64,000 bases of DNA from Sedimentibacter hydroxybenzoicus DSM 7310 (GTDB lineage: Bacteria > Bacillota > Clostridia > Tissierellales > Sedimentibacteraceae): contig NZ_JACBNQ010000003.1 in the NCBI RefSeq assembly GCF_013403245.1, positions 62,001 through 126,000 of the forward strand. The letters are read 5' to 3'. Under the pieces are notes generated by a model that did no database searches, had not been told where the DNA came from, and saw nothing but the letters and a program-made list of their open reading frames with translations. Positions 3,565-38,041 of this stretch are shown one piece after another (the first letter of the stretch is position 1; each line of letters begins with the position of its first letter). The position numbers and the translations under genes are program-made.

Positions 3565-3610
3565 ATTTATTTAATATTTCGATTCTATGGGGTGTTCCAT
3601 AAACAGTTTC

Positions 3611-3714
3611 ATTCACCAATTTATCTGCTCCTTTCGTCGCATAAATTGGGAATTCAGTGTATTTGACCTACCGCCATTTTTCTCTCCCTTCGGTCGTAAA
3701 AATGGGGTTAGGGC
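3611..3714 (-). repeat. Structured two-hairpin repeat, copy 1
   Basis: Read on the minus strand it has the family order: CCCTAACCCC, a stem CCATTTTT/AAAAATGG, GGTAGGTCA, then a second stem CCAATTTAT/ATAAATTGG ending in TGAAT. The loops are ACGACCGAAGGGAGAG and GCGACGAAAGGAGCAG, close to each other. The same architecture occurs at 34776-34884 and 37889-37993 with different stem bases that still pair. It lies between spo0A and nudF and is not coding. Confidence 0.8.
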
Positions 3715-3814
3715 ATAAATAAGCTTGACAAAAACATTTATTATTATTACAATAAGCACGATAATAAATAATTTTGCAAATAAGATAAAATTGCAAGAAT
3801 TACAGGAGGCAATT

Positions 3815-34700: not shown

Positions 34701-34730
34701 TTAGTTATTAATATATGGTACTTTAAGAAT

Positions 34731-34772
34731 AATATCACAAATTATGGGAAATAATAATTTGTGATATTTTTT
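34731..34772 (+). terminator. Terminator after the TetR gene
   Basis: AATATCACAAATTAT (34731-34745) pairs with ATAATTTGTGATATT (34753-34767), followed by a T run. Confidence 0.85.
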
Positions 34773-34775
34773 ATG

Positions 34776-34884
34776 TCCTACCCCCCTTTTAACAAGCGAT
34801 AACGCAGTTGAAGTGGATGTAGGTCAAATACAAGGAATGCCAAATTTATTCTAACGGAAGAGAGAAAATAAATTTGATACATTC
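34776..34884 (+). repeat. Structured two-hairpin repeat, copy 2
   Basis: Same layout as copies at 3611-3714 and 37889-37993: TCCTACCCCCC, a first stem-loop, GTAGGTCAAATACAAGGAAT, then a second stem CAAATTTATT/AATAAATTTG and TGATACATT. The loop CTAACGGAAGAGAG is diverged. It lies between the TetR gene and the activase operon, ending about 22 bases before that operon's start. Confidence 0.7.
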
Positions 34885-34906
34885 TACTACTTATTTTGGA
34901 GGTTAT

Positions 34907-35827
34907 ATGAAAGTAGGAATTCCTAAAGGGTTGTTATATTACAAATATCATCCTTTTTTAATTACTTTTTTTAAAGAATTAGGCGCGGACGTAGTTGTAT
35001 CCGAGGATACAAATAAGAAAATTCTGGACTTAGGAGTAAAATATGCTGTGGACGAAGCATGTCTGCCGATAAAAATATTTCATGGTCATGCGGTAGCTTT
35101 AAGGGACAAATGCGATATCATAGTTATTCCGCGTATCATGCAGATTAAAAAAAACGAATACATATGTCCTAAATTTTGCGGACTTCCCGAAATGGTTACA
35201 AACAGTATTGAAAACATGCCATTGTCTATAACAGAGCCGATTTATACTTTTACTAAAAAAAGACTTTATCGTTGGGCAAAATCAGCAGGAAAAAAGGTCA
35301 CCGGCAATGAATTTAAAATTAAACACGCATTTTTAAAAGCTTATGAAGGTCAATTAAATTACAATGCAGGAATTTTAGACGAGAATTATGATATTAAAAT
35401 TGCATTGGTAGGTCATCCATACAACATATACGATAATTTTGTCAATATGAATTTAGTGAATAAGTTGAACAAATTAGGTGTCGGTGTAGAAACTATGGAA
35501 TTTACACATGAACTTTTAATAAGCCTGGAAATCAACAATTTATATAAACGACCATTTTGGACTTTTGCAAGAGAAAATTACGGTTTTGCAGTAAATGCTT
35601 CAAAGGAAAAAAGAGTTGACGGAATTATATACATATCGTCATTTAACTGCGGTATAGATTCTGTAATAATTGAATTAATAAAGGACAAAGTCGGAAGCTT
35701 CCCATTTTTGACCCTTAAAGTGGATGAACATACAGGGGAAGCCGGTATAGACACAAGGATAGAAGCATTTACTGACATGCTTGAAAGGAGAATTGTGAAT
35801 GAAAGTAACATTCCCACACATGGGTAA
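34907..35827 (+). CDS. Acyl-CoA dehydratase activase-related protein, DUF2229 type (part 1)
   Basis: The 306-residue product begins MKVGIPKGLLYYKYHPF, the typical start of DUF2229 proteins related to 2-hydroxyacyl-CoA dehydratase subunits, with conserved Cys in DEACLPIK, CPKFCGLPE and SFNCGIDS that could hold an iron-sulfur cluster, and the C-terminal LKVDEHTGEAG-DTRIEAF. The biochemical role of this group is not established. TTGGAGG precedes ATG 34907. It overlaps the next gene by 29 bases. Confidence 0.85.
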   Translation: MKVGIPKGLLYYKYHPFLITFFKELGADVVVSEDTNKKILDLGVKYAVDEACLPIKIFHGHAVALRDKCDIIVIPRIMQIKKNEYICPKFCGLPEMVTNSIENMPLSITEPIYTFTKKRLYRWAKSAGKKVTGNEFKIKHAFLKAYEGQLNYNAGILDENYDIKIALVGHPYNIYDNFVNMNLVNKLNKLGVGVETMEFTHELLISLEINNLYKRPFWTFARENYGFAVNASKEKRVDGIIYISSFNCGIDSVIIELIKDKVGSFPFLTLKVDEHTGEAGIDTRIEAFTDMLERRIVNESNIPTHG

Positions 35828-36896
35828 TGTATATTTAGCAGCAAAAGCACTGTTGGATGGTCTCGGGATCGACTATGTAATACCTCCAAAAAATAATAAG
35901 GAAGCACTTGATATCGGCACATTGCATTCTCCCGAAGAAATGTGCCTGCCATTTAAGTTGATGATAGGTAACTACGTTCAGGCGATTCAAAAGGGTGCAG
36001 ATACAATAATTATCGTTGGAAGCTGCGGACCATGCAGGTTTGGAGAATATTGTGAACTTCAGATGAATTTAATGAAAAATTTGGGATACGATTTGAATTT
36101 TATCGTTATTGATTATCCGAAGGATATAGGAATAAAGGAATTATACAGGAGAATTAGTCAGGTTTCTTCAAAAAGCAACAGGAAAACATATGAAAAACTT
36201 AAAGCTTTAAGTAACAGCTTAAAAGTAATAAGGTTAATAGATGAAATAGAGGAAGCAGCTCATATGTTTGCAGGATATGAAAGAAATAAAGGCGACTGCA
36301 AGCATATTTTAAATGAATGTAAAGAGGAAGCATCAAAATGCAGAACATCGAAAGAAATGATTAATCTGTTGATTGAATATAAAGAAAAAATTAAGCATGT
36401 GCCCATTGACATTAATAAGAATCCTTTAAAAATTGCTGTGATAGGTGAAATATACACTGTTATTGAGTCTTACACTAATTTTTCAATAGAGGATAAATTA
36501 ATGGGGTACGGTGTTTCTTCCCACAGAGGTCTTACACCAAGCTGGTGGGTAAAAAATGCATTGTTGAGCCCCTTAAAAATTAACTCTTTAGCCATACGAA
36601 GAAATGCCAAAAAATATTTACCTCTGCAGATAGGAGGTCATGCAATTGAATGTGTGGGAGAAGCGGTTACTGCCTCAAAGGAAGGTTACGATGGAGCAAT
36701 TCAAATATTCCCCATGGGCTGCATGCCAGAAATAGTATCAAAATCAATTCTTCCAACCATTTCTAAGGATCTGGACTTTCCTGTGATGTCACTGGTGGTG
36801 GACGATATGACCGGTGAAGCAGGTTACATTACAAGAATTGAAGCATTTATCGACTTGCTTGAAAGGAGAAGAGAAAGTGTATTATTTAGGTGTTGA
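35799..36896 (+). CDS. 2-hydroxyacyl-CoA dehydratase-like protein (part 2)
   Basis: The 365-residue product has the same architecture as its upstream neighbour: PEEMCLPFKLMIGNY, GSCGPCRFGEYCELQM, FPMGCMPE and VVDDMTGEAGYITRIEAF, with Cys residues suited to a 4Fe-4S cluster as in HgdB-type subunits. The role is unknown; in many bacteria parts 1, 2 and the ATPase are one polypeptide of some 1400 residues. ATG 35799 follows AAGGAG and lies within the end of part 1, so translation is coupled. Confidence 0.85.
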   Translation: MKVTFPHMGNVYLAAKALLDGLGIDYVIPPKNNKEALDIGTLHSPEEMCLPFKLMIGNYVQAIQKGADTIIIVGSCGPCRFGEYCELQMNLMKNLGYDLNFIVIDYPKDIGIKELYRRISQVSSKSNRKTYEKLKALSNSLKVIRLIDEIEEAAHMFAGYERNKGDCKHILNECKEEASKCRTSKEMINLLIEYKEKIKHVPIDINKNPLKIAVIGEIYTVIESYTNFSIEDKLMGYGVSSHRGLTPSWWVKNALLSPLKINSLAIRRNAKKYLPLQIGGHAIECVGEAVTASKEGYDGAIQIFPMGCMPEIVSKSILPTISKDLDFPVMSLVVDDMTGEAGYITRIEAFIDLLERRRESVLFRC

Positions 36897-37860: not shown

Positions 37861-37993
37861 TCCTGTCATCCTGAACGAAGTGAAATTTGCCCTAACCCCA
37901 TTTCTCAGAGTCCTTTTTCTGAGAAATGGCGGTAGGTCATTCGCAAAGAGTTCCCAATGTTTGCGACCAAAGGGAGCAGAAACATTGGTGATT
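37861..37993 (+). repeat. Structured two-hairpin repeat, copy 3, with leader
   Basis: A leader TCCTGTCATCCTGAACGAAG (37861-37880) is followed by GCCCTAACCCCA (37889), stem CCATTTCTCAGA/TCTGAGAAATGG, GGTAGGTCATTCGCAAAGAG, then stem CCAATGTTT/AAACATTGG with loop GCGACCAAAGGGAGCAG and TGATT. Compared with copy 1 the two stems differ in several bases on both sides while pairing is kept. Confidence 0.8.
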
Positions 37994-38002
37994 CGCTCAG
38001 CT

Positions 38003-38041
38003 TAAGCGACTGACACCAAATCAAAGATTTGGGTCATCTGC
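38003..38041 (+). repeat. Intergenic hairpin repeat (type B)
   Basis: TAAGCGACTGACACCAAATC, AAA, GATTTGGGTCATCTGC: stem CCAAATC/GATTTGG. Identical over this core to the tandem units at 55755-55913. The stop codon of the minus-strand gene at 38034 (TGA) lies inside it. Confidence 0.8.

Follow-up and report, generated by a model that had tools for sequence, protein, structure and literature searches.

The 64,000-nucleotide stretch of DNA analysed here (the window) contains three copies of a structured element, and these copies are part of a large family that is distributed through Sedimentibacter and some other members of the order. Members of this family share a structure of two hairpins with covarying arms, have defined ends, were inserted as units and occur preferentially at particular sites. 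In the reading which we consider best, and to which we give about an even chance, they are non-autonomous, IS200/REP-like mobile single-strand hairpin elements of about 115-122 nt with two adjacent hairpins, putatively moved by a Y1 transposase.

The original prediction had recognised the three copies in the window, and their extents could be corrected to 3602-3718, 34771-34890 and 37885-38002. Copy 1 is located on the minus strand (hairpin 1, 3718-3662; hairpin 2, 3661-3602; R2 match G000:C23:65602-65718:-) and starts with the end triplet TTA. Copy 2 on the plus strand is of the same end type (hairpin 1, 34771-34828; hairpin 2, 34829-34890); its ends are ambiguous by a few nucleotides with TTAT on both sides, and its site is vacant in relatives. 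Copy 3, also on the plus strand, is of the ATT end type (hairpin 1, 37885-37941; hairpin 2 from 37942; R2 match G000:C23:99885-100002:+); its right end is rearranged and the exact 3' end is uncertain. Aligned with one another, the three copies have TGYCCTAMCCCC and GTAGGTCA in common, as well as two stems in which the changes are compensated. Between copies 1 and 3, stem 1 changes from CCATTTTT/AAAAATGG to CCATTTCTCAGA/TCTGAGAAATGG and stem 2 from CCAATTTAT/ATAAATTGG to CCAATGTTT/AAACATTGG, exactly as had been quoted. The loop thought to be common to all copies is present in copies 1 and 3 but not in copy 2, where the loop of hairpin 2 reads TTCTAACGGAAGAGAG and not GCGACSAAAGGGAGCAG; copy 2 also has ATGTAGGTCA where the others have CGGTAGGTCA. 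The description of copy 1 as a doubled hairpin holds and can be generalised: the same tandem G.A apex recurs on the first hairpin of several copies, and nearly all of them have it on hairpin 2.

A covariance-model search, as had been proposed, revealed a large family in this genome and its relatives beyond the three seed copies. Searches of the window's genome (3.8 Mb in 71 contigs) with two sequence patterns located ten and eleven candidates, respectively; L003, from the set of ten, is apparent coding sequence and was rejected as a copy. The covariance model R1, built from 12 copies, returned 46 rows at E up to 1 in the same genome. Taking the best 30 of these 46 rows as loci, the genome has about 30 copies, some of them degraded; among the weaker rows most are echoes of these palindromes on the opposite strand. 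The nearest relatives of the ORF at 35799-36896 place the organism in Sedimentibacter. R1 matched 34 of 61 genomes of relatives at E up to 0.01 (row numbers include echoes), namely 23 of 25 within the genus, where G002 and G015 gave no match at this threshold, and 11 of 36 beyond the genus in the same family or order. From an even sample of the class 5 of 148 genomes matched with stricter filters and E up to 1e-5: the genome itself, three others of its order and one from a different order. The whole window gave no Rfam match at gathering thresholds, the best match of one copy from the same genome under permissive settings reached 22.3 bits where 80.4 are needed, and the Rfam intron families matched neither the window nor one copy. 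With respect to a recognised insertion sequence or MITE, which the original prediction had named as the alternative, no Rfam family covers the copies, and IS identity was compared with the fetched Y1 loci only. Nothing on this family was found in the open-licence literature under Sedimentibacter or Tissierellia repeats, the papers obtained for Tissierellia concerning other organisms or RAYTs in general, which is weak evidence of absence, and phage and plasmid records gave no match to one Sedimentibacter copy or one copy from a viral contig.

For the analysis of the structure 80 stretches were fetched (106 matches). Together with earlier loci 118 copies were parsed, of which 113 were kept, five being left out before the end-pairing count. 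The alignment A6 consists of 74 of 77 diverse copies; one degenerate copy, one half copy and one chimera were left out. The structure comprises 45 pairs, 22 in hairpin 1, including two from the end triplet, and 23 in hairpin 2. That it is not due to chance, as had been claimed, is borne out by A6, where 91.5% of the cells are paired compared to 79.4 +/- 0.3% with shuffled partners and 31-44% when slid by 1-3 columns. Double-changed cells number 362 versus 101 after shuffling, the covariation score is 0.321 versus 0.109, and changes on both sides are seen in 27 of the 45 pairs. The stems are thus compensated, and the uncompensated differences that would have spoken against the structure did not occur. 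Because the copies in A6 are related, the shuffles overstate significance, whereas the slid controls retain this relatedness. A set from other genera (89 rows, 55 distinct), whose alignment was fitted to the model and thereby favours the structure, gave similar values: 89.9% paired, 297 double-changed cells versus 87, and a score of 0.320.

The first two bases of the end triplet are complementary to the bases following GGTC[A/T] in 109 and 107 of 113 copies, respectively (61 and 56 when shuffled). The flanking base at -4 also matches the first base after GGTCA in 98 of 113 copies (57 when shuffled), which is explained by a flank composition that goes with the end type. Several unpaired features are kept as well: in hairpin 1 a single-base bulge that follows the first two pairs and a bulged A after CCTA, in hairpin 2 a two-base bulge and the tandem GA/GA apex (70 of 74 copies). 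The sequence GTAGG between the hairpins is invariant (74/74; GGTAGG, 72/74), and is internal and paired. Constraint on the element at the level of its structure is supported.

The ends of the element coincide with the ends of the helices, and the two hairpins stand back-to-back. At the copy 2 site the left flank TTTGTGATATTTT is followed by the element, from TTATGTCC to CTACTAC, and by the right flank TTATTTTGGAGG. The empty counterpart L089 reads TTTGTGATATTTTTTATTTTGGAGG, and L087 is the same with one additional A. In 16 relatives this site is a compact gap in ten cases, a copy in one (L093), a different palindrome in three and other sequence in two. The site is compatible with the lack of a target duplication, with up to 4 nt being ambiguous. 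In L277 a copy is nested within another copy between CGCAATGA and ATTCCC. It reads TTATG...GACTGCG and shows no target duplication, which implies that the unit extends from the paired triplet to CTGCG and comprises the two hairpins only. A DDE-type MITE does not match these observations, since the ends lie in two separate hairpins and the nested copy is without duplication.

Tandem copies are arranged head-to-tail, the next unit starting directly or a few bases on. In G025, units of 135 nt are repeated 4.9 times beside a 5S-like sequence; the arrays of this genome are found at C1:3068594-3069265 (L328; 4.9 units, 96% matches), 1904947-1905545 and 2621123-2621795. Near 9282-9393 in L194 (G021) a hairpin 1 half is directly followed by a tRNA-like sequence. 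In G032 three rRNA operons (L323, L324 and L325) each have, as judged by eye, a shortened copy behind the 16S-like and a full copy behind the 23S-like sequence.

Among the 113 copies the end triplet and its partner are AGA/TTC in 43, GTA/ACC in 30, TTA/AAC or AAT in 15, GCT/GCC in three, and others in fewer copies. The end types differ in their landing sites. A stop codon within -4 to +8 nt of model position 1 was found for 29 of 50 AGA copies versus 5 of 51 GTA, TTA and GCT copies (sense reading frames of at least 70 codons; Fisher p 2.3e-7, with copies that are not independent). From their translations, we take some of the proteins ending at AGA copies to be similar to L10, EF-Tu and DnaK. 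By a simple test of the right flank, 11 of 50 AGA copies lie at the site GAA^GGATCTC of a dispersed repeat; most ATT copies, copy 3 included, are at the same site, and about ten AGA copies fit neither a stop codon nor this repeat. The dispersed repeat, TCATCCTGA(A/G)CGAAGTGAAGGATCTCAT, is hairpin-like, and the element enters it repeatedly at one fixed position. The landing site of copy 3, at 37866-37884 on the plus strand, is the left part of this dispersed repeat, TCATCCTGAACGAAGTGAA^GGATCTC.

The GTA, TTA and GCT types (T-types) have a T-tract directly to the left of the triplet in 36 of 48 cases, versus 4 of 49 for AGA. A stem of at least 10 bp precedes the T-tract in 24 of 40 T-type copies, whereas shuffled sequences gave 1.9 on average (maximum 6 in 50 shuffles); in AGA copies the same test was positive in 2 of 48. 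Many of these T-tracts are intrinsic terminators. Ten T-type loci were compared with Rfam: in eight the element directly follows a T-box leader and in one a Moco riboswitch, in each case on the same strand, whereas the tenth, L038, gave nothing. The landing site of copy 2 (34726-34770, plus strand) is terminator-like and consists of a conserved inverted repeat, ATATCACAAATTAT...ATAATTTGTGATAT, and a T-tract. Copy 1 is an exception: its neighbours, a Spo0A-like gene on one side and a NUDIX gene on the other, are antisense to it, and no terminator precedes it. As for the inverted repeat at the copy 2 site, it is 48 nt long, together with its T-tract (34726-34774) precedes a DUF2229 gene, and is 86-95% identical in 15 of 19 aligned relatives, versus 71-77% for the adjoining coding DNA; it may combine the roles of operator and terminator.

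The end of rplJ allows the same gene end to be compared between relatives. It was found at 20 places in 19 of 25 genomes, with 19 gene ends readable. A full copy follows the stop codon in L273, L277, L278 and L283. By eye, the remaining ends have relics (six), the dispersed repeat (three), compact gaps (five) or other sequence (one).

The pairs that deviate from Watson-Crick pairing give an indication of the strand that folds. With the loop ends excluded, the remaining 40 pairs of A6 show 80 G.T versus 22 A.C combinations, and 48 versus 22 without the pair defining the AGA type. Over all 45 pairs the bias is weaker (91 versus 64), because the five loop-end pairs hold 42 A.C; we judge these five pairs to be poorly aligned, with apices of differing length. 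A first count had left out 15 of the 45 pairs (invariant, outer or loop-end), and the recount covers the full 45. The excess of G.T outside the loop ends suggests that the strand read here as plus is probably the folding one.

The loops bear on the nature of the folded molecule. In A6, 33 of 39 tetraloops of hairpin 2 are of the form GNNA, with A (21), T (9), C (3) or G (0) as third base. Three-nucleotide loops occur in 32 of 74 copies; 30 of these end in A and only 11 (GTA, GGA) are GNA, and 3 of 74 apices were not parseable. In the other genera, with 31 of 55 apices parsed, 16 of 19 tetraloops are GNNA with T (8), A (5) or C (3) as third base; in both sets the copies are not independent. RNA loops of the GNRA type require a purine at the third position. 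Extraordinary stability has been described for DNA mini-hairpins whose GNA or GNNA loop sits on two or more G-C pairs (PMC4686876). The pyrimidines at the third position, together with this stability, point to DNA without being proof, and suggest that the folded molecule is more likely DNA. A single-stranded DNA intermediate appears probable to us. The original prediction had left the choice between a functional RNA and hairpin DNA handled by an enzyme; the constraint on structure is upheld, and the hairpin-DNA branch is favoured because the insertion sites are clean, because the same gene ends carry full copies, relics or nothing, and because copies behind terminators retain the fold and the loops are GNNA rather than GNRA.

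The transposase search that had been proposed detected IS200- and REP-type Y1 genes in the genome, but none carries the element or could be tied to it. The Y1 matches of the window's genome are one IS200-type gene (G000:C1:475183-475539) and four others resembling the REP type, three of them 269-278 aa and the fourth 145 aa long, the type being judged by length and flanks. Within the genus 18 of 25 genomes have a Y1 match. When R1 and R2 were applied to 32 Y1 loci of the genus, no credible match to the element was obtained (best E 0.033, filters off), and the same was true for 10 Y1 loci from other genera. The best match is a hairpin of weak similarity next to one of the Y1 genes of G002 (L175). 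Copies without any Y1 match were found in G035 (99% complete, 25 rows), G016 (97%), G017 (94%) and G001 (88%), and in the less complete genomes (62-81%) G004, G006, G007 and G022; conversely, G002 and G015 have Y1 genes and no copies.

The end hairpins of IS200 differ in sequence from those of the element. A terminator-like hairpin and a T-rich stretch were found 130-200 nt before the Y1 domain in 6 of 7 IS200-type loci (no shuffled control; L168 at a contig edge left out, L169/L191 counted once), and in four of the six the IS starts, by comparison, at or within about 15 nt of this hairpin. The six loci are L022, L166, L167, L169, L183 and L347, several of them at TTTTTGTA. As this landing place is that of the T-types, we put mobilisation by a Y1 enzyme in trans only slightly short of an even chance; the remaining weight is spread over other machines and a function at the RNA level. 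The REP-type Y1 genes L023, L170, L171, L173, L184 and L192 are flanked by another repeat, GGGGACGGTTCT (16 of 26 loci readable). A further palindrome, GGGGACA...TGTCCCC, is inserted in hairpin 1 of L046 and is also present at the copy 2 site in L094, L096 and L097.

Three candidates for an autonomous parent were rejected. The partial matches about 3.3 kb apart in G032 are, by eye, the copies in the rRNA operons. L053 is a half copy between two genes which, from their translation, we take to be similar to spoIIP and lepA. In G025 (L332) the Y1 relic 0.75 kb from a copy has its own RAYT-type repeat, GGGACGGTTCT. We also dropped a guide code of the IS200/IS605 type, in which a guide would read the host flank and which the clean pairing between the left triplet and the bases after GGTCA had suggested. 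This triplet moves in together with the element, as the nested copy in L277 brings its own TTA; among the 71 dispersed-repeat stretches listed no unoccupied one shows GAAAGATC; and GA does not follow the stop codon in any of the five compact gaps at rplJ. The pairing of the left end is internal to the element, and at this end no guide bases pairing with the target flank were found.

Hairpin 1 begins with the end triplet (main types AGA, GTA, TTA, GCT), the first two bases of which pair with the two bases after GGTC[A/T], and hairpin 2 is closed by CGCA/TGCG. In the preferred reading, the plus strand would fold, most likely as single-stranded DNA in replication. A Y1 (HUH) transposase that recognises hairpins would, acting in trans, cut at both helix feet, and the element would be pasted into another exposed site without target duplication, the GTA, TTA and GCT types into T-tracts, mostly of intrinsic terminators, and the AGA types at stop codons and into the one dispersed repeat. 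Points against this reading are the Y1 loci without the element, the carriers without a Y1 match, the genomes with Y1 genes and no copies, the differing end hairpins of IS200, the weaker strand bias over all 45 pairs, the 3-nt loops, the frequent pairing of base -4 and the position of copy 1; in addition, matched arms could arise by template-switch repair without selection. If the arms were kept matched by such palindrome correction, the covariation would be uninformative on function; the arms are indeed inverted repeats with frequent changes on both sides. Correction would be expected to remove bulges and to show no strand bias, so that the bulges kept in hairpin 1, the two-base bulge and GA/GA of hairpin 2, and the excess of G.T over A.C on one strand outside the loop ends count against it, and we regard it as very doubtful.

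A function as RNA is also unlikely in our view, though less so; the family would then be a transcribed structure of 3'-UTRs or intercistronic regions (stabilising mRNA, serving as a processing site or terminating transcription) selected site by site, with its spread being incidental. The strong covariation in both alignments and the tandem G.A module in 70 of 74 copies would fit such a role, as would the shared direction of stop-codon and terminator copies with the preceding gene or leader and their positions behind genes resembling rplJ, tuf and dnaK. Relics or no copy at the same gene end in relatives are at odds with it, as are GNNA loops with a pyrimidine at position 3 in 23 of 49, the many copies beyond a terminator, where low transcription is expected, and the missing Rfam match. 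Movement as a REP/REPIN by a RAYT (TnpA_REP) of the genus is still less probable. It is supported by the invariant GTAGG between the hairpins, reminiscent of a GTAG head, by the four RAYT-looking genes of the genome, and by the hairpin of L175 (E 0.033), and GTAG REPs too are described as supplying stop codons (PMC3733652). Here, however, GTAG is paired and lies between two hairpins, and several such genes are flanked by GGGGACGGTTCT instead, whereas RAYTs are described as always REP-flanked (PMC2817692). We give equally little weight to another machine favouring terminators or structured DNA, such as a site-specific recombinase or, acting in trans, the reverse transcriptase of a group IIC intron. 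Group IIC introns are reported to integrate at DNA stem-loops (PMC10190682), the T-types are located in the T-tracts of terminators, and a Y1 match is missing from several carriers; the stop-codon and dispersed-repeat sites, however, violate a stem-loop/T-tract rule, and no Rfam intron family matched in the window or in one copy.

Compared to known systems the family works like those of the IS200, REP, BOX, BCR and group IIC intron type, with membership in none of them established. The bcr1 repeats of the Bacillus cereus group have a conserved fold. Compared by description, these BCR repeats are alike in being short, 100-400 bp, and unlike in belonging to another lineage; they have a TTTAT motif, and a spread resembling site-specific recombination was proposed for them (PMC6542083). 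The ends-only derivatives of IS200/IS605, or PATEs, are likewise short and non-coding with hairpins at both ends, and such elements have been described in Halanaerobium (PMC7290912). The nested copy without duplication and the landing near terminators, as at the order's IS200-type loci, are further similarities. IS200/IS605 transposases are described as binding subterminal hairpins, with guide tetranucleotides 5' of the hairpin foot (PMC6006769, PMC8266576), whereas here the two hairpins are the whole element and show no guide-target pairing at the left end, and no parent IS with matching ends was found in the 32 genus and 10 other Y1 loci.

REPs and REPINs resemble the family in high copy number, palindromic sequence, an invariant GTAG, conserved unpaired bases and contact with stop codons, GTAG REPs being reported to supply often the TAG stop codon itself (PMC3733652). 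They differ in that GTAG is internal and paired here and that the readable resident RAYT-like genes are flanked by other repeats; among the Y1 loci examined no RAYT gene was flanked by inverted copies of the element, whereas flanking by their own REPs is described as constant for RAYT genes (PMC2817692). BOX elements of Streptococcus pneumoniae, again compared by description, are modular, structured and in contact with stop codons, encoding the stop in 36 of 58 CDS overlaps; terminators as landing sites, as seen here with the T-types, do not come up in the part of this account used here (PMC3049150). Group IIC introns share the landing at structured DNA stem-loops (PMC10190682) and are set apart by an element of about 120 nt here, without an Rfam intron match and with further landing sites. 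The family is a new one of a broadly known kind with an unusual target choice, and is absent from Rfam 15.

We tentatively propose, as a rather uncertain extension, that the end type, i.e. the terminal helix, decides the landmark: GTA, TTA and GCT would lead to terminator T-tracts, including those of T-boxes and riboswitches, and AGA to stop codons, where the first bases of the element can rebuild the stop. If true, target choice would be carried by the element's terminal helix, and the family would be a natural probe for which strand is exposed at gene ends. A large covarying family whose end types choose gene-end landmarks offers a direct test of how hairpin elements without their own transposase pick their targets. 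The copies can affect the expression of neighbouring genes, such effects being possible because they lie in T-box leaders, between rplJ and rplL, behind tuf and in the rRNA operons of one relative.

Related elements also occur in viral contigs. The pattern search yielded 56 stretches there, and R2 (E up to 0.01) gave 27 matches, ten of them above 60 bits; many of the other pattern stretches look unrelated by eye. Since related elements are intergenic in viral or prophage contigs, phages may carry the family between hosts. Such elements lie between genes in L377, L384, L398, L381, L360 and L396, and one group of viral contigs has them directly behind a gene that resembles those of phage major tail proteins.
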